DNA of 64,000 nucleotides from Paracholeplasma brassicae. GTDB taxonomy: Bacteria > Bacillota_I > Bacilli_A > Acholeplasmatales > UBA5453. Location of the stretch: contig NC_022549.1 of the NCBI RefSeq assembly GCF_000967915.1, forward strand, positions 124,001-188,000, given 5' to 3'. The position numbers and the translations under genes were made by a program. Each line of letters starts with the position of its first letter. Position 1 is the stretch's first letter. Positions 48,665 through 62,925 of this stretch are shown here, in pieces. A model generated the notes under the pieces. The model saw nothing but the letters and a program-made list of their open reading frames with translations, had not been told where the DNA came from and ran no database searches.

Positions 48665-48787
48665 GAGTTTAGAAGACTTTATTATAAAGCGTAAATAAAT
48701 TTTACATAAATAAGGTTTCTTGTCACGGTTTTGACACAACAGATGTTTATAATGAGAATTAAACAACGACAAAGGATGGCAAAAAGA

Positions 48788-51732
48788 ATGATTAGATTAA
48801 ACCAAATCACCAAAACGTATGAATCAAAAGAAGGCATTAAGACGGTTGCACTAAGAGATGTCTCATTAACCATTGAGGCTAAAGGATTAACATTTATTGT
48901 TGGTAAGTCTGGTAGCGGAAAAACAACCCTTCTCAATTTGATTGGTGGGCTTGATCAAACGTTTTTGGGTGAATTAACGATCCTAGATAAATCAACCCAA
49001 TCCTTTAAGACTAGTGATTATGACACATATCGAAACACGATGGTTGGATTTATTTTTCAAGAGTATAATCTGCTAGATGGTTTGAATGTGTTTGACAACA
49101 TCGGGTTTGCCTTAGAGCTACAAGGCCTTAAAAAAGATTCTAAAATCATCAAAGAGGTTTTAGAAGAAGTCGGACTAGAAGGCTTTCAAAACCGATACCC
49201 CAATGAGCTATCGGTTGGACAAAAACAACGAGTGGCCATCGCGAGGGCTTTAGTGAAAAAACCAAAAGTAATTTTGGCCGATGAACCTTCTTCTGCCTTA
49301 GACAGTGAAACATCAAATCAAATATTCGCATTACTAAAAAAAATAAGTCAGAAACACTTAGTACTTGTCGTTTCACACGATGAAGAATACGCAAAATGTT
49401 ATGCCGATCGAATCCTTACCTTAAAAGATGGTAGTCTCATTAAAGACGAGGTAATAGAGGCGAAAGAAACGACGGTAAGTGATGGCTTAGAAACCTACCA
49501 TCCAATCAAATCACACATGCCATTTTATGTGTCATTTAAGTTAGGGTTAAGCGCCTTAATTAAAAAGCCATTTAAAGTGTTTTTATCGGTCATACTGACC
49601 TCATTTGCATTAATGCTATTTGCGTTTAGTGATCATCTCAGTACTTATGACAAACAAGAAGCATTTACCTACGCCACTAAGGCAAAAAATGATGTGTATT
49701 TTGGGACATTGAAACATGAGACACCATTAAACGGCTCTAGGAATCGTGTGTTAATGAATGATGAGGATTATCACACATTATTTAACCAACACCAAGACAT
49801 ACACTTTTATCCAGTTGAAACCTACCAAAACGAAAATTATTACTTAATTGATCACTACAAACAAGAAAGCGACTTATCTGAACACTTAGAGTCCGATCAG
49901 TATCACACGCATCTACTTAGAGGATATCTTAAGATCGATGATGCGATTATGAATGACTATGAGTATTCTTTAGCGATTGGTAGATTACCTAGTAAACCAA
50001 CAGAAATGGCGATTAGTCTTTATACGGCCTCACATTTTTAACCTACGGGTATAGAGAAAACCTAAATCTTAATGGTGTGACATTATCAAGTCTAGAAGAG
50101 CTCATCGGTCTAACTGTATTCAATAAAACCATTGTTGGTATTATTGACACAAAGCTCGAGGCTAAGTATGAATCCCTAAAGACAACAACAAACGATATCC
50201 TTAGGTCGTTTTTGTTTGATGAACTAGACAGAAAGCCCCACAACGTTGCGTTTTTAAGTGAATTCTCAACGCCGCTTAAAACGAATAGATCTAAAAGCTA
50301 TGAGTTAGAAATGGCAACTAGTGATGATGGGGTCACTCGCTTTAATGAGTTTCGTTTTCTAAGTGAAAGAAACCAAGAACAGTTTCATTTAAAAACAGGG
50401 GTGACGTTTGATAACCTTAAATCAAATGAATACCTTGTGAATTTTACGGATTATTACTTCTTAATTAGACTAGAAATCGAAAATAATCATGAGGTTAGGA
50501 AGCAATTATTCAAAGACAAGTACATGGATTATTTTGAGATTGCTAATGCGTATGACGCAATAAACTATGATGAGGTTAGAAATTCAACTTGGTATCAAGA
50601 AACATTTCCTAACTCAAATCATACGGAGCTTCAAATATACGAAGATGTGATTGGTTATGGTTTTGATACGAACGAGACCATGTTCTTTTATGGTGGTCAC
50701 TTACAAGTATTTGAAGAACTTGCATCGGTGATACAAAAAACAAACACACGTATTTCTTATGAGCAAGTGATCAATGAAGAGGTCATCAAAGAACGTTATT
50801 ATCTTAGATATATAGGCTATAACATCGAACAAAATAGTGAACTTAGTTACCTAGACTACATGACTTATATTCAGAACCCTTACTTAACCTACATTCATTA
50901 CTTTGATTTATTGAATGAGGAAACGCTAATCACACAACATGAGTATTATAGAATACAAAAGGATGTTCAAATTGAACTGATGCTTGACACACTAAAATAC
51001 GAGTTTGTGAGATTTTTATACCAAGACAATAAAGGATCTGGGTTAATTCCTGATCAAACCATCGCTGGATTTTATGAGGACGGTGAGTTTGTAGAAAAAA
51101 CCTCAATTCTATTTGGGAAAGAAGACCCTGCACAGGTGGTGTTTCCAGCGTTATTTGATTCAAGATATGAGGTAATCTACGGTGTATTAAATGACCGTTA
51201 TGAAGGCCTTTCTTCATTATCAAAGATGCATTACGAAGGTTATGATAACGGATATTCAGTGAATAACTTATCGAGTGATGAGCTTTATCAAGCAAGTTCA
51301 CTCATCAAAGATTTAGGCAATATAGGAAAAATTGCCTCCTATGTGTTACTAACATTTTCTTTTCTACTGATTGTAAACTTGATTGTTTTTAGTATTAAAG
51401 ATAAGAAAAAAGAGATTGGTATTATTCGTGCCCTTGGCGGTAGAAGAATTGATCTCTTAGAAATGTTTTTAACTGAAAATTTGATGATATCCATAATAAA
51501 CGGCTTAGTGACTAGTGCATTATATATTTATGTTCACGATTATTTTGGACAAGTATTCAAAAATGATTTTGGGATTGATATAGCGATTATCTACATATCA
51601 GTACGAGCGTTCGTTTTGATTTTTTTCATTAGCGTCTTGTTAAGTGTAATTACGACTGTCATACCTGTGTATCTAATCAACAAAAAAAGAACCCATTCAT
51701 CAAGTAGAAAACAGAAGATAGAGGAACTTTAG
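48788..51732 (+). pseudogene. ABC exporter, ATPase fused to FtsX-like permease, frameshifted
   Basis: The start at 48788 follows AAAGGA; ATGs at 48776 and before are possible but less typical. The ATPase has Walker A GKSGSGKT, the signature variant LSVGQKQR, Walker B VILADEPSSALD and SHDEE. One helix near 275 is followed by a long external domain. The frame ends at 50041; adding one T to the T5 run at 50035-50039 restores HFLTYGYRENLNLNG and the rest, including three C-terminal FtsX helices (LTFSFLLIVNLIVFSIKDKKKEIGIIRALGG broken into LTFSFLLIVNLIVFS and KEIGIIRALGG). The full chain is about 980 residues, as in lantibiotic or bacteriocin-type FtsX exporters. It has a box-type promoter. Confidence 0.82.
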
Positions 51733-52504: not shown

Positions 52505-52519
52505 TTGTTTTGATATAAT
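52491..52519 (+). promoter_or_regulatory. guaBA promoter
   Basis: TTGAAG (52491-52496), 17 nt, TATAAT (52514-52519) with an extended TG at 52511-52512. The transcript starts just before the purine aptamer. Confidence 0.75.
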
Positions 52520-52532
52520 AGGTTCAATATAT

Positions 52533-52593
52533 GCGTATATCGCTTGAATATGGCAAGCAGTCTCTACCCTAAACCATGAATTTAGGACTACGC
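52533..52593 (+). ncRNA. Purine (guanine-type) riboswitch aptamer
   Basis: P1 GCGTA/TACGC; P2 GCTTG/CAAGC with loop AATATGG; J2/3 AGTCTCTACC; P3 CCTAAA/TTTAGG with loop CCATGAA; J3/1 GGACTAC. The AATATGG and CCATGAA loops form the usual kissing contact. The base that pairs with the ligand (position 74 of the xpt numbering) is C, as in guanine/hypoxanthine riboswitches, whereas adenine ones have U. High guanine should favour the terminator downstream and lower guaBA expression. Confidence 0.92.
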
Positions 52594-52604
52594 AAAAGAA
52601 CCAA

Positions 52605-52656
52605 ACGTATGGTTTTTTTGCACACGCGAAAAAGAGAAAACCATACGTTTTTTTTA
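52605..52656 (+). terminator. Riboswitch-controlled terminator
   Basis: ACGTATGGTTTT (52605-52616) pairs with AAAACCATACGT (52637-52648), followed by a run of T. It is the expression platform of the purine riboswitch. Confidence 0.85.
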
Positions 52657-57178: not shown

Positions 57179-57193
57179 AAAAAATCAAATAGT

Positions 57194-57235
57194 GACAAAT
57201 ACGCCCTGTTCACTTTCATTTAATGGTGATAGAAT
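57194..57235 (+). promoter_or_regulatory. Promoter with shared box (site E)
   Basis: Box GACAAATACGCCCTG (57194-57208), 21 nt, -10 TAGAAT (57230-57235), 27 nt before the small membrane protein start. Confidence 0.6.
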
Positions 57236-57261: not shown

Positions 57262-57657
57262 ATGACAAAAGATATTAAATCCAATGTGATCATGTGTTTT
57301 GTGTTTTTGATTGGGTTTTCGTTATTGGTGTTATTTTTAGTCGGTTCTTTACAAAATGAAGACAGGAAAAATAGCTATTTAAATGAACTTCAATTTGTAA
57401 TCGATGAGATCAAGGAGAAACACCCAACGTTGGTTTTATACCGAGTGAGTGTGTTTGAAACCAGTGAGAATACCTATTATTCAATCACATATCTGATGGA
57501 CTCTATTAAAGAAGAAGCCATTTACAATGAGTCATCAAAAACATTACTATATTTATCTCAGTTAAACCATAGTGAAACCATTCTTTATGAAGTGATTGAA
57601 AAAGAAATGAAGGATGCCACACATGTGTATTTGTATGAACTAAATCTTTTTGACTAA
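57262..57657 (+). CDS. Small membrane-anchored hypothetical protein, 131 aa
   Basis: GTGGGGG sets the start at 57262; the in-frame ATG at 57223 lies before the -10 and cannot be used. One membrane helix at about 9-30 (VIMCFVFLIGFSLLVLFLVG) is followed by about 100 external residues of mixed strand and helix. Family unknown. A box-type promoter precedes it and a strong terminator follows, so it is a single-gene transcript in the presumed box regulon. Confidence 0.65.
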   Translation: MTKDIKSNVIMCFVFLIGFSLLVLFLVGSLQNEDRKNSYLNELQFVIDEIKEKHPTLVLYRVSVFETSENTYYSITYLMDSIKEEAIYNESSKTLLYLSQLNHSETILYEVIEKEMKDATHVYLYELNLFD

Positions 57658-58649: not shown

Positions 58650-59567
58650 ATGAATTTAATGAATCATTCTAGAGAGTTGGTGCTTTATATTGATAGACTA
58701 AGACTCGATCGTAATATTTCGCAGGATATTTTTCTAGAGAATATTGTGTCTTCGAGACAATATCGGAGATATTTAAGCGGGGATTCAACCTTATCGTATG
58801 TTGTCTTAGATAAGTTATCAAAAAGGTTAGGATACAATGCAGAGTTTGTCATTATGGAAGTGGAAGCGGAGAGAATTAAGCACTCGTTTGAAATTCATAC
58901 ACTTTATAATGCTATTGCTTCTAAGAACAAAGTATCCGCTGATATGATTTTAAATGAGATAAAAAAACACCCAATATATTTGGAAAGTAATGAAATGCTT
59001 TACCACCATTGCTTGAATATGTATGATTATCATTTTTCTAATTCAAGCCAGAAATCATTAATTGATAAAACAAAGAAGCTTGTTGGGTTAGACAAACTAT
59101 TGCTTAAAAAAGTTCTATCTACTACTGAACTTTTAATCATGGTCACTTTCTTTAATTTAGACCAATTCGAACATATTGATTTGATAGCAAATAAACTGGA
59201 ATCATACTTAAAAAATGATTTTATTATTGTTTCAGGTCAAAATGTTAAAGTAATTATACTTGTTTATGAAGAACTAAGTAGATATTACAGTATTAGAGAG
59301 AATTATATCAAAATGTATGAGTATGCGATTATGGGTATTAATTACGCAAATGAAGTGGAGTCAATCTATATGCTAGAAGCATTGTATTTTTTTGCTGGAG
59401 CAGCATCGTTTGAGTTAAATGAGTTGGAGCGGTGCAAGAAATACTTAATACAATGTTATACTGTTTTATTATCTGAAGACAACTTAGTAAAAATGGCATC
59501 TTATAAATCGTTTTTTAAGGATGCGTTTGATATTGATATAGCTGAAGAAATTAGAAATTTAATATAA
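58650..59567 (+). CDS. Rgg/PlcR-like (RRNPP) HTH-TPR regulator, copy 1
   Basis: 305 residues from the ATG at 58650 (GGGGAGG, 7 nt). Residues about 9-68 form a helix-turn-helix (YIDRLRLDRNISQDIFLENI, then SSRQYRRYLSGDSTLSYVVL). The rest is all-helical, with TPR-like repeats (for example YEELSRYYSIRENYIKMYEY) and no other domain, as in Rgg, PlcR and related peptide receptors of about 290-310 residues. It converges on a paralogue of identical length. In such proteins the TPR domain binds a short imported peptide and changes DNA binding; the peptide array 1.2 kb away supplies candidates. Confidence 0.75.
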   Translation: MNLMNHSRELVLYIDRLRLDRNISQDIFLENIVSSRQYRRYLSGDSTLSYVVLDKLSKRLGYNAEFVIMEVEAERIKHSFEIHTLYNAIASKNKVSADMILNEIKKHPIYLESNEMLYHHCLNMYDYHFSNSSQKSLIDKTKKLVGLDKLLLKKVLSTTELLIMVTFFNLDQFEHIDLIANKLESYLKNDFIIVSGQNVKVIILVYEELSRYYSIRENYIKMYEYAIMGINYANEVESIYMLEALYFFAGAASFELNELERCKKYLIQCYTVLLSEDNLVKMASYKSFFKDAFDIDIAEEIRNLI

Positions 59568-59605
59568 AAAAACCGGTTAGTTCAAAATTGAACGTGACCG
59601 GTTTT
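59566..59605. terminator. Bidirectional terminator between twin regulators
   Basis: AAAAAAACCGGT pairs with ACCGGTTTT, with an inner TTC/GAA pairing. Confidence 0.85.
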
Positions 59606-60521
59606 ATTCTTTCTCAATTAATAAATCGTTAATATCTATATTAAATCGATTTTTATAAATTTGCTTAAAACGTTGTTGTTTAGTTTTATTGTTATCAATC
59701 ATGAGTAGAATGTAGCATTTTTTTAAGAAATCATCTCTCTGATCGTATTTTTGTAGTTCATGAGAAGAGGCAGCAGCGAAATAATATAGTGTATCAAGTA
59801 AATAGAACGATCGGACTGAAAGCGAATATTTAATCCCTTCTAGTGAATAATAGAGCATTCGTTCATAATTTTCAGAAATACTGAAGAATCTTGCGAGTTC
59901 TTCAAGGACTAGGGTAACGATTTTAATGTTATGGCCGGTAACGACTGTAATGTTATTTTCGATGAATGATGCTAGTTTTTCTGCAATAACATTAATTTCT
60001 TTGAATGAATCAAAATAAAAGAAGGACACTAGAATTAATAATTCTGAAGAACTAAGTGCTTTTCGTTTTAGTAGTTTGTCGTAATCAACAAGTTCTTTTG
60101 TTCTTTTTATTGTTTCAACCTGTGAAGAACTACCTGTTACATACTGGTACATATTTTTAGAGTGGTTGTATAAAAGGATTTCATTTGTCGAGATTACATG
60201 TGAAACATCGATTGACTTAAATAGTTCAGAGGCTTTGTCATAGTTTCTTCCTACAACTGCATTATAAAGATTATTAATTTCTTGTGCTTGTTTAATTTTT
60301 TCAGCCTCATACTCCATAATAATGAGCTCAGCGTCAAAATCCAATCTTCTCGCCAATTTATCTAGGATCATATAGGACATCGTTGAATCGCCATTCATAT
60401 AACGTCTATATTGACGCATTGACACAATGTTATGAAGAAAATTTTCTTGTGTCATGTTTCGATAAGCTCTTAACTTGTCGATGAATGTAATTATTTCTCT
60501 TGTTTGATCAATTTCGTTCAT
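59604..60521 (-). CDS. Rgg/PlcR-like (RRNPP) HTH-TPR regulator, copy 2
   Basis: AGGGAG fixes the start at the ATG at 60521, giving 305 residues; upstream in-frame codons would run through the promoter. It is a close paralogue of copy 1: FIDKLRAYRNMTQENFLHNI and SMRQYRRYMNGDSTMSY align without gaps to its HTH, and the TPR part shares RYY/RFFSI-EN-Y motifs. It is divergent from the peptide array, the classic arrangement of Rgg-shp and similar pairs. Promoter on the minus strand: TTTATT, 17 nt, TATAAT (60587-60559). Confidence 0.78.
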   Translation of the reverse strand: MNEIDQTREIITFIDKLRAYRNMTQENFLHNIVSMRQYRRYMNGDSTMSYMILDKLARRLDFDAELIIMEYEAEKIKQAQEINNLYNAVVGRNYDKASELFKSIDVSHVISTNEILLYNHSKNMYQYVTGSSSQVETIKRTKELVDYDKLLKRKALSSSELLILVSFFYFDSFKEINVIAEKLASFIENNITVVTGHNIKIVTLVLEELARFFSISENYERMLYYSLEGIKYSLSVRSFYLLDTLYYFAAASSHELQKYDQRDDFLKKCYILLMIDNNKTKQQRFKQIYKNRFNIDINDLLIEKE

Positions 60522-60813
60522 TAGATACTCCCTTATAATGGCGGTTTTCGGTTTAATAATTATAATGTAGCACTTTCTGGGAATAAAAACAATGGAAAGT
60601 AGAACCATTTGTTGAATTAATAGTGAAGCTAGTACTCATTATCTTAACATGAATTATCAAGAATTATGAATAGATTATATCAAAAATAGGAGAAAAATGA
60701 TGCAAATAGTGACATATGTGCTCTACTCAAAGCTTAAATAATAGCACATAATAGAGTTAGAAAAGATTATCTAAGACAGTAATCGGGACTGTAGACAAGT
60801 GGAGGAATATAAA
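60522..60813. promoter_or_regulatory. Divergent control region between regulator 2 and the peptide array
   Basis: Contains the leftward regulator promoter, two direct GAATTAT repeats 10 bp apart (60651-60657, 60661-60667) and the rightward box promoter at 60711-60752. GGAGGA at 60801-60806 is the ribosome site of the first array gene. Confidence 0.55.
60711..60752 (+). promoter_or_regulatory. Promoter with shared box (site F) of the peptide array
   Basis: Box GACATATGTGCTCTA (60711-60725), 21 nt, -10 CATAAT (60747-60752), 61 nt before the first peptide gene. AATAGTG directly precedes it, as at site E. Confidence 0.6.
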
Positions 60814-60972
60814 TTGGGACAAAATGAAAAACAATTCATCATCAATCAATCAGAGTTATTAGAAGGGATCGCTTTTGATTCAAAATTCTATTATGAGGAT
60901 TTCACAGAGAGTGAAACAAACAATCGTGGTTATTTAAACGATGTAGGATTACCAGAAGGATTTAGTATTTAA
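60814..60972 (+). CDS. Array peptide A1, 52 aa
   Basis: Starts with TTG, unlike the ATG of the other A copies. No signal peptide. The N-terminal 35 residues are polar and acidic (MGQNEKQFII, then EDFTESE), and the C-terminus is RGYLNDVGLPEGFSI. It shares this core with peptide B. It is the first gene of the array operon and presumably stays in the cytosol unless exported by an ABC system. Possible roles are a non-secreted decoy or ligand of the HTH-TPR regulators, or a propeptide. Confidence 0.7.
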   Translation: MGQNEKQFIINQSELLEGIAFDSKFYYEDFTESETNNRGYLNDVGLPEGFSI

Positions 60973-60995
60973 GGAAACCAAGGAGAAAAGAAAAC

Positions 60996-61154
60996 ATGAA
61001 AAAGATAATTATTAGTTTATTCGTAATCGTAGCAAGTTTGGGTGCTATCGTAGGGCATTTAAGTCAAAAAGAAGCAAAAGTTTATGAAGCAGAAGTAACG
61101 ATGCACCGTGGGTACATTGAAGACGTAGGACTACCTGATGGACCAGGACGATAG
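60996..61154 (+). CDS. Array peptide B1, 52 aa, secreted pre-pheromone candidate
   Basis: MKK followed by a hydrophobic stretch (IIISLFVIVASLGAIVG) is a Sec signal peptide or membrane anchor; the tail ends RGYIEDVGLPDGPGR. Size and layout match Phr, PapR and NprX-type pre-pheromones, whose C-terminal 5-10 residues become the signal. The start lies 23 nt after the A1 stop with its own AAGGAG site. Confidence 0.75.
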   Translation: MKKIIISLFVIVASLGAIVGHLSQKEAKVYEAEVTMHRGYIEDVGLPDGPGR

Positions 61155-61179
61155 AAAACAATAATAGGAGGAATAGAAA

Positions 61180-61338
61180 ATGGGACAAAATGAAAAACAA
61201 TTCATCATCAATCAATCAGAGTTATTAGAAGGGATCGCTTTTGATTCAAAATTCTATTATGAGGATTTCACAGAGAGTGAAACAAACAATCGTGGTTATT
61301 TAAACGATGTAGGATTACCAGAAGGATTTAGTATTTAA
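61180..61338 (+). CDS. Array peptide A2, 52 aa
   Basis: Identical to A1 in protein sequence but with an ATG start, after AGGAGGAAT. Confidence 0.75.
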   Translation: MGQNEKQFIINQSELLEGIAFDSKFYYEDFTESETNNRGYLNDVGLPEGFSI

Positions 61339-61361
61339 GGAAACCAAGGAGAAAAGAAAAC

Positions 61362-61520
61362 ATGAAAAAGATAATTATTAGTTTATTCGTAATCGTAGCA
61401 AGTTTGGGTGCTATCGTAGGGCATTTAAGTCAAAAAGAAGCAAAAGTTTATGAAGCAGAAGTAACGATGCACCGTGGGTACATTGAAGACGTAGGACTAC
61501 CTGATGGACCAGGACGATAG
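61362..61520 (+). CDS. Array peptide B2, 52 aa
   Basis: Identical to B1 at the nucleotide level as far as read by eye. Confidence 0.75.
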   Translation: MKKIIISLFVIVASLGAIVGHLSQKEAKVYEAEVTMHRGYIEDVGLPDGPGR

Positions 61521-61545
61521 AAAACAACAATAGGAGGAATAGAAA

Positions 61546-61704
61546 ATGGGACAAAATGAAAAACAATTCATCATTAATCAATCGGAGTTATTAGAAGGGA
61601 TCGCTTTTGATTCAAAATTCTATTATGAGGATTTCACAGAGAGTGAAACAAACAATCGTGGTTATTTAAACGATGTAGGATTACCAGAAGGATTTAGTAT
61701 TTAA
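61546..61704 (+). CDS. Array peptide A3, 52 aa
   Basis: Same protein as A2; two silent differences (an Ile and a Ser codon near residues 10-13). Confidence 0.75.
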   Translation: MGQNEKQFIINQSELLEGIAFDSKFYYEDFTESETNNRGYLNDVGLPEGFSI

Positions 61705-61727
61705 GGAAACCAAGGAGAAAAGAAAAC

Positions 61728-61886
61728 ATGAAAAAGATAATTATTAGTTTATTCGTAATCGTAGCAAGTTTGGGTGCTATCGTAGGGCATTTAAGTCAAA
61801 AAGAAGCAAAAGTTTATGAAGCAGAAGTAACGATGCACCGTGGGTACATTGAAGACGTAGGACTACCTGATGGACCAGGACGATAG
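61728..61886 (+). CDS. Array peptide B3, 52 aa
   Basis: Identical to B1 and B2 at the nucleotide level as far as read by eye. Confidence 0.75.
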   Translation: MKKIIISLFVIVASLGAIVGHLSQKEAKVYEAEVTMHRGYIEDVGLPDGPGR

Positions 61887-61911
61887 AAAACAATAATAGG
61901 AGGAATAGAAA

Positions 61912-62064
61912 ATGGGACAAAATGAAAAACAATTCATCATCAATCAATCAGAGTTATTAGAAGGGATCGCTTTTGATTCAAAATTCTATTATGAGGATTT
62001 TACTGAAAGCGAAACAAACAATCGTGGTTATTTAAACGATGTAGGATTACCAGAAGGATTTTAA
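61912..62064 (+). CDS. Array peptide A4, 50 aa, shortened end
   Basis: Four silent changes in the DFTESE codons relative to A1. It ends GLPEGF, lacking the final Ser-Ile. No B gene follows; a membrane protein gene begins 54 nt later. Confidence 0.72.
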   Translation: MGQNEKQFIINQSELLEGIAFDSKFYYEDFTESETNNRGYLNDVGLPEGF

Positions 62065-62118: not shown

Positions 62119-62925
62119 ATGATTAACTATAAAACAAATAAAATTGGGATCACAATCACATTAACCGCCGTCTTTCTTACGCTTATGGGGTTTCTTCTTC
62201 ACGCAAGAAGCGGATACTTAGAAGAAGGTGTCTATTTTAGACAAACCTATGGCTATATCGGCGTTAATGAATCAGAAGACATTGTCTTAGATTTCACCCT
62301 ATATAGTTTAGGGACTGAAAATTTGACCTACTTTGATGAACCGACCTTCTTCGATGTTGATAACGACCTTGTGTTTCTTAAAGACATCGAGGTAAGAAGT
62401 ATTCAAAGAGCAAAAGACATTGATGTGATCGAACTAAGGGTAACTCTTTACATGAGTGATTATGGCGTGACAACGATTGAACGCCTTAGACAAAAAAATA
62501 TAAACAATAAACCAATCAAGAGTTATGAGATTGGCAGTATTGTGATTGAAAACATTCAAGCAAAACCACTAATGGTTTCGCACCAAGTCAATCAACAGTT
62601 CTTTGATCAAGCCGAATACAACATGAACTTAGATAGTCATCTAAGTGAAAGCTATTTGATTAAAGACGTCATCATCAACCATGAAAAGATTCTTTTTAAC
62701 AAAGAATTTTTACCCCTTTTGGTCGTTCCTGGACAAAAAACAGAACTCTCTTTCGAACTGGATTTTAAAGACATTAATTACGATGTGATCGTTGTAAAGC
62801 CGCTCATTTTTCTTTCAAAAGAAGGGGATGAAACAAGTTATTTATTAAAGATATATACCCAAACAAGGTATGATATGCCGCTCAGTTACCAAGAAATCAT
62901 TTCCTACATCGAATACAGTATCTAA
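62119..62925 (+). CDS. Membrane-anchored hypothetical protein ending the peptide operon
   Basis: 268 residues after GTGGGGA. One N-terminal helix (about 9-27, ITITLTAVFLTLMGFLLHA) is followed by an external domain rich in beta strands. No enzyme motif or known family. No terminator lies between the array and this gene, and one follows it, so it is probably cotranscribed with the peptides. It could process, bind or sense the peptides outside the cell, but that is inference from position. Confidence 0.6.
   Translation: MINYKTNKIGITITLTAVFLTLMGFLLHARSGYLEEGVYFRQTYGYIGVNESEDIVLDFTLYSLGTENLTYFDEPTFFDVDNDLVFLKDIEVRSIQRAKDIDVIELRVTLYMSDYGVTTIERLRQKNINNKPIKSYEIGSIVIENIQAKPLMVSHQVNQQFFDQAEYNMNLDSHLSESYLIKDVIINHEKILFNKEFLPLLVVPGQKTELSFELDFKDINYDVIVVKPLIFLSKEGDETSYLLKIYTQTRYDMPLSYQEIISYIEYSI

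Follow-up and report, generated by a model that had tools for sequence, protein, structure and literature searches.

Surveys locate RRNPP pheromone systems chiefly in Bacillus, Streptococcus, and further members of the Bacillota, and a word search of these surveys, which give incomplete coverage of the literature, found no mention of Acholeplasma, Mycoplasma, or Tenericutes. Repeated signals within one precursor are described for Rap-Phr, with up to 8 Phr copies (PMC11343458), and also for NprR, PlcR, and AimR systems (PMC9765709), and both pheromone copies are active in phi3T and phi105 (PMC11343458; PMC9765709); for Rgg and ComR, no duplicated signals are reported (PMC9765709). Here, we describe a tandem array of small genes in a 64,000-nucleotide stretch of Paracholeplasma brassicae DNA (the window, meaning throughout the whole stretch that was analyzed). 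The array is very probably an auto-inducing RRNPP-type pheromone operon, one in which the precursor has been split into a leaderless and a leader-bearing half and the two halves amplified as a gene pair. Together with the homologous loci surveyed below, it points to an RRNPP branch that is widespread in small-genome mollicute relatives and unreported in the literature searched, and in which signal copy number appears to have been raised repeatedly: within the precursor, as whole genes, and as a split gene pair.

Architecture of the array and origin of its peptides

TRF places the array at 60801-62061, with a period of 366 bp, 3.4 copies, and a 98% match, and finds it to be the sole high-scoring tandem repeat of the window (Table 1). 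The initial annotation had given this period with units starting at 60814, 61180, 61546, and 61912, which both TRF and the gene calls reproduce exactly, and it had proposed separate ribosome sites, which are indeed present as a Shine-Dalgarno-like site before every A and every B gene (AGGAGGAATAGAAA-ATG and CCAAGGAGAAAAGAAAAC-ATG, one per A and one per B). Its count of three units and a partial one holds in the form of four A and three B genes, the last A having no B behind it, and its description of 52-codon gene pairs fits the first three copies of each gene and fails for the shortened fourth A.

Table 1. Features of the array and its surroundings, in window positions
Feature	Position	Strand	Remarks
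Second box copy, GTGACAAATACGCCCTGTT	57192..57210	+	TAGAAT 19 nt on
Predicted second target, 131-aa protein	57262..57657	+	One N-terminal hydrophobic segment
P0001, paralogous regulator	58650..59567	+	45% identical; without own propeptide
P0002, HTH + TPR-like regulator	59604..60521	-	Divergent from array; profile, fold, tree
Operator-like 19-bp box, GTGACATATGTGCTCTACT	60709..60727	+	5' of array; also in L073-L075
-10-like CATAAT	60747..60752	+	19 nt past box
Peptide gene A, copy 1	60814..60972	+	TTG start, 52 codons, leaderless; GGAGG just 5'
Peptide gene B, copy 1	60996..61154	+	52 codons, Sec leader, C-terminus RGYIEDVGLPDGPGR
Peptide gene A, copy 2	61180..61338	+	ATG start
Peptide gene B, copy 2	61362..61520	+	Identical to other B copies
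Peptide gene A, copy 3	61546..61704	+	2 synonymous changes
Peptide gene B, copy 3	61728..61886	+	Identical to other B copies
Peptide gene A, copy 4	61912..62064	+	50 codons, last 2 residues lost, 4 synonymous changes
268-aa orphan protein	62119..62925	+	N-terminal hydrophobic segment; 54 bp 3' of last A

The A copies differ at six sense codons, every one of them synonymously, and all three B copies are identical. Four of the six changes are adjacent (codons 30-33 of copy 4) and may stem from a single conversion event, which leaves the argument for selection weak. The genome is a single 1.88-Mb contig in which the array, with all four copies, lies at one place and nowhere else, so a gross assembly artifact is unlikely, with the exact copy number taken as assembled. 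Units that are 98% alike and B copies that are identical imply that the amplification is recent or has been homogenized, and they would fit an ordinary peptide locus of one copy that underwent a recent neutral duplication or was misassembled. We nevertheless consider this explanation very unlikely, as the copies lie on one contig, can be told apart by SNPs, and include distinct first and last members, and as a second gene-level array (in L217) and the internal tandem copies of 39 of 90 propeptides in related loci indicate that copy increase is recurrent. The gene for the 268-aa protein is probably in the same transcript as the array, no terminator being seen between them. Pfam and NCBIfam hold no model for A, B, or this protein. 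Inside B, the minus strand has terminator-like sites, which were dismissed because their frequency is no higher than chance.

The two peptides, A (MGQNEKQFIINQSELLEGIAFDSKFYYEDFTESETNNRGYLNDVGLPEGFSI) and B (MKKIIISLFVIVASLGAIVGHLSQKEAKVYEAEVTMHRGYIEDVGLPDGPGR), have C-termini of the form RGYxxDVGLP[E/D]G, or more exactly RGY[LI]xDVGLP[ED]G, a motif that they have in common with their homologues. B begins with a typical Sec leader and A is leaderless, both assignments being made by sequence, from hydrophobicity and not from SignalP. The loci that carry the closest relatives of the array's regulator (L073, L074, and L075) help to make sense of this difference. Each has one divergent propeptide, composed of a leader, a pro-region (EFDTxFN...), and an end reading SDDVGM[SP]EW or similar, so that homologues with related C-termini, as looked for on the strength of the initial annotation, are present in relatives beside the receptor. 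A aligns with the post-leader part of the L074 propeptide, that is, the pro-region and the end, with a score of 89 that 0 of 5000 shuffles reach, and residues 1-38 of A, with the pheromone end removed, still align to the L075 propeptide (0 of 5000 shuffles). B retains the leader and terminus of the relatives' propeptides without the pro-region, and its alignment score against the L074 propeptide is reached by 1 of 5000 shuffles. The simplest account of these alignments is that A is the precursor minus its leader and B the precursor minus its pro-region, and that the pair would have arisen through duplication, complementary loss, and amplification of the two genes together, probably in that order. 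In the 12 sister genomes of the family, no intact A/B homologues with both features were found, and a search of the sister genomes for the DVGLP pattern returned only reading frames unlike A and B.

Several other origins and identities were considered and set aside. A match of B to AimP in NCBIfam (0.048) was discarded as weak and covering the leader only, and a lasso-type or otherwise modified peptide was rejected because no modifying enzyme adjoins the array. A phage or plasmid origin is unsupported, with no relatives found in viral contigs or in phage and plasmid collections, and P0002 used as a query against genome contigs found no relatives.

The adjacent regulators and their family

The regulator transcribed divergently from the array, P0002, is most likely its pheromone receptor, a prediction that draws on several lines of sequence comparison. 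A profile of nine homologues matches the solved structures of PlcR (2qfc, 3.4e-5), Rgg2 (4yv6, 5.6e-5), and 5v5t (1.8e-7), the PlcR match spanning 7-283. HTH_3 is matched by five of the nine homologues (best 5e-5) and weakly by P0002 itself (0.07); the N-terminal helices of the receptor model are covered by full-length PlcR and ComR matches. The AlphaFold model, for which the input was the two window proteins alone (pLDDT 77), is all-helical and has the C-terminal TPR-like domain that characterizes RRNPP(A) members. Its best fold matches in the PDB are PlcR-PapR-DNA (3u3w, 5e-5), PlcR (2qfc), and ComR-ComS-DNA (5jub), followed by Rgg and PrgX, all full-length in Foldseek. Sequence and predicted fold thus agree in placing the regulators in the RRNPP family. 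In the regulator tree, P0002 groups with the receptors of L073, L074, and L075 (SH-aLRT 95-100), which come from another family of the order; identity between P0002 and the L073 receptor is 62%. The gap between P0002 and the first array gene is ~290 bp, compared with a usual ~86 bp. In addition to P0001, a third paralogue elsewhere in the genome is 51% identical and has no propeptide of its own. A fourth regulator of the family in the same genome (L023:5440-6147) is truncated by an internal stop; ~28 bp upstream of it, the minus strand encodes a divergent leader peptide of its own, which ends in DPGDIYYPPLPPGKVTS.

Of 160 genomes from the order, 52 encode homologous regulators, which also occur in several more families of the class. 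Ninety of 118 regulators surveyed have a divergent, leader-bearing small ORF, at a median distance of 86 bp. Under one fixed rule applied to both sets, a divergent leader peptide lies within 200 bp of 87 of 113 testable regulators and of 8 of 303 control genes, which were other genes of the same loci (Fisher p 8e-56). At least two copies of one short motif are present in 39 of the 90 propeptides and in no control gene, examples being L080, with five copies of LDFDDSGYPELIR, L083, with eight exact copies of DFHNSGNPEYEEL, and L252, with nine of DFDDRDEPEFINI. The motif [DNS]xGxP[ED], which was picked after inspection, is found in 32 of 90 propeptides against 2.3 expected on shuffling, and it is present in both A and B. 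Copy increase also takes place at the level of whole genes, as L217 has at least three repeats of a leader-bearing propeptide gene with a 142-bp period. On the regulator tree, the multi-copy and single-copy states of the propeptides require six changes, so the increase in copy number would have arisen or been lost several times.

The surveyed loci also vary in other respects. Polyprotein-type propeptides, in which 4 to ~10 tandem repeats of a motif of 13 residues, such as that of L080, come after a leader, are encoded at L080:3851-4186, L088:1979-2392, and L091:2390-2764, in L083, L252, L257, and L262, and at others. Divergent peptides without a leader lie beside family receptors in L077, L078, L085, L117, and L118, some of them with a DVGxP-like motif near the N-terminus. 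In many loci, the propeptide is followed on its 3' side by a conserved small protein of ~92 residues (DPYxxSYLxxLK ... LxEWYxxN ... HxKTxxLL; L024:7750-8049, L025:8753-9043, L240, L246, L249, L251, L258, L267, and L271-L278). It has no Pfam family match and is likely a third component or a target.

What lies downstream in the propeptide operons of the closest relatives suggests that their systems control exported products: the operon continues into a C39-peptidase protein in L075, an ABC-FtsX protein in L073/L279, and, in L074/L280, an ABC exporter clustered with S66 peptidase, class II aminoacyl-tRNA-synthetase-like, kinase-like, and methyltransferase genes. The cluster at L280:8180-17520 (G051) also includes AbiEii-like nucleotidyltransferase and ParA/NUBPL-type ATPase genes and is reminiscent of a nucleotide-peptide antibiotic cluster. 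These neighbors bear on the suggestion, already raised in the initial annotation, that the array may encode antimicrobial peptides. If the pair were an antimicrobial or a toxin and its antidote, B would be membrane-active and A a cytoplasmic immunity peptide, with amplification serving dosage; B is short with a hydrophobic N-terminus, and bacteriocin-type exporter and peptidase genes do adjoin homologous propeptides in L075 and L280. However, the hydrophobic part of B is the leader common to the relatives' propeptides, and the motif of A and B is the very one that is repeated in receptor-adjacent propeptides across the class. No exporter or modification enzyme adjoins the array, and in the relatives the exporters are located 3' of the propeptide, where regulated targets would be. 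The antimicrobial alternative is thus not favored, and we regard it as extremely improbable.

The operator-like box and its candidate regulon

The sequence upstream of the array (CAAATAGTGACATATGTGCTCTACT) also matches the promoter of the gene that neighbors the third paralogue. In all three close relatives (L073, L074, and L075), this box occurs in the interval separating receptor from propeptide, and the array and the relatives together give the consensus GTGACAnATRYGCnCTRYT. Searching the complete genome with GTGACANATRYGCNCTRYT returned exact matches at the array, at window position 57192, and at G000:C1:63121, as well as a site with one mismatch at 1843131 and two weaker sites inside genes, and the reversed pattern, searched genome-wide as a control, gave 0 sites. 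The window contains two matches against 0.10 expected by chance, a comparison to be read knowing that the box was defined from sequences in which it was then found; the independent support consists of its exact recurrence in three relatives, its presence at two additional genomic sites, and its constant spacing. The distance from the box to a -10-like hexamer is exactly 19 nt in seven of seven promoters (four sites in this genome and three in relatives). A related box of the AGGGCGTATATGTCCTAT type lies ~40 bp 5' of many of the family's other receptors, with 65 of 118 within six mismatches, compared with 9 of 118 for shuffled sequence.

The box and its fixed 19-nt spacing predict a regulon beyond the array. 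The 131-aa protein, which has no family match, is taken to start at the ATG behind GGTGGGGGCT, as the ATG at 57223 falls within the predicted promoter. A predicted target beside the third paralogue is a 244-aa protein whose resemblance to the CoiA N-terminus is weak and below the cut-off, and the one at G000:C1:1843131 (L295, an ORF at 386-1000 past the box) is a secreted 204-aa protein of no family. A dyad upstream of the array (TATGTGCT-N20-AGCACATA) was dropped, since its chance expectation is an estimated ~0.25 and its left arm is explained by the box. Loci L080-L110 (genus g14) have a palindrome between receptor and propeptide, CCTAATTG-TATTAT-CAATTAGG, which has a -10-like center and adjoins a AGGGCGTATACGCCCT box.

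Elsewhere in the window, a purine riboswitch aptamer (52513-52610; Rfam RF00167, 63.8 bits) lies directly 5' of an IMP dehydrogenase gene (52678) and guaA, and an ATPase-FtsX-type ABC transporter is apparently split into two frames (48731-50041 and 50077-51732), possibly representing a single frameshifted gene.

Proposed circuit and comparison with described systems

The initial annotation had read the array as a multi-copy pheromone operon, and this reading is strengthened by receptors that resemble PlcR, Rgg, and ComR in both profile and fold and by a box common to the array, the receptors, and the relatives. A correction to it is that, of the two peptides, B alone has a secretion leader, so A is no normal pre-pheromone. 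In the circuit that we propose, B would be exported via Sec and processed by signal peptidase and further proteases, and a C-terminal piece around YIEDVGLPDG would be re-imported by Opp to bind P0002 in the cytoplasm, and possibly the paralogues as well. The genome encodes the parts for these steps, namely signal peptidase I, an M50 protease, and an Opp operon whose binding protein is 534 aa long. The complex of P0002 and peptide would then act at the box in front of the array and switch on its transcription, closing a positive feedback loop, and would also turn on the gene at window 57262, the CoiA-N-like gene, and the gene for the secreted 204-aa protein. The array promoter has no good -35, and the box occupies its place; from the poor -35, we infer activation rather than repression. 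Head-to-tail amplification of the pair would raise the signal dosage. Several facts speak against this circuit: A is leaderless, and hence four of the seven array genes are not Sec-exportable; the sister genomes yielded no intact A/B homologues; the gap between receptor and first gene is longer than usual; and neither P0001 nor the third paralogue has a propeptide of its own.

The role of A can be pictured in three ways to which we give similar weight: as an agonist or tuner inside the cell, as an antagonist inside the cell, or as a second signal that is exported by a different route. Within the proposed circuit, A would most likely give a ligand of the same code that is kept in the cell, or leaves it otherwise, and tunes the response. 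A producer cell would accordingly make both a public, exported signal and a private ligand, written in the same code and read by one set of receptors, an idea that we put forward tentatively. If true, the public and private pair would constitute a genetically fixed offset between self and non-self in quorum sensing. As an antagonist, A would instead occupy the receptor inside the producer and block self-activation, so that only cells with enough B respond. That A has the B terminus RGY[LI]xDVGLP[ED]G without a leader, opens both the operon and every unit, and has leaderless, divergent, DVGxP-like counterparts next to further family receptors (L077, L078, and L085) is consistent with such a role. 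We find it doubtful, though, because amplifying the seven genes leaves the ratio of agonist to antagonist unchanged, and because the leaderless peptide in those loci of relatives is the sole candidate signal and can hardly be an antagonist only.

Alternatively, A and B could be two pheromones, with A taking a leaderless route to P0001 or the third paralogue and B addressing P0002. Small leaderless signals, ComS among others, are found in streptococci. Rgg peptides are exported by PptAB (PMC7564271). The presence of three receptors (45-51% identical) and of two termini that differ after DVGLP fits this alternative, but the boxes in the genome are nearly one sequence and so indicate one shared target code, and we judge it unlikely. 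Under the preferred reading of a self-inducing operon, the pheromone motif is open to synthesis and assay, and it becomes possible to test the open question of whether the number of signal copies determines the quorum threshold.

Among described systems, PlcR-PapR of the Bacillus cereus group is similar in its receptor, which combines HTH and TPR-like parts and is equally long (best fold 3u3w/2qfc; profile E 3e-5), in its small propeptide with a leader, as B has by sequence and A does not, and a putative C-terminal signal, and in the positive feedback proposed here. The two differ in layout, papR lying directly downstream on the same strand whereas the array and the surveyed propeptides are divergent, and in the operator-like box, GTGACAnATRYGCnCTRYT here as opposed to the PlcR box consensus TATGNAN4TNCATA. 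The DVGLP[ED]G motif is also unrelated in sequence to PapR, and the genes here are amplified together with a leaderless sibling. The streptococcal Rgg2/Rgg3-SHP and ComR-ComS systems resemble the locus in having a divergent or adjacent small peptide, a cytoplasmic receptor, a box near a poor -35, and several paralogous receptors with near-identical signals, and ComR is among the fold matches (5jub). Unlike those of Rgg and ComR, the signals here are made with Sec leaders ~20 residues long and are often present in many copies, and in contrast to the very short, hydrophobic, unduplicated SHP, the precursors have 52 residues, polar acidic C-termini, and duplicates. Rap-Phr is comparable in its propeptides with several copies of the mature signal, but Rap lacks an HTH and the repeats are inside the precursor, whereas here two separate genes are repeated as a pair and one of the two is leaderless. 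The propeptides of the relatives (L080, L088, L217, and others) have the same receptor family, divergent layout, [DNS]xGxPE-type motif, and repeats, although these repeats are mostly within the precursor, or of whole genes in L217, and the A/B split is seen in none of them. Compared with these systems, what appears to be new is the lineage, how often signals are repeated, the box together with the regulon that it predicts, and, most of all, an amplified unit that pairs a leaderless with a leader-bearing gene.
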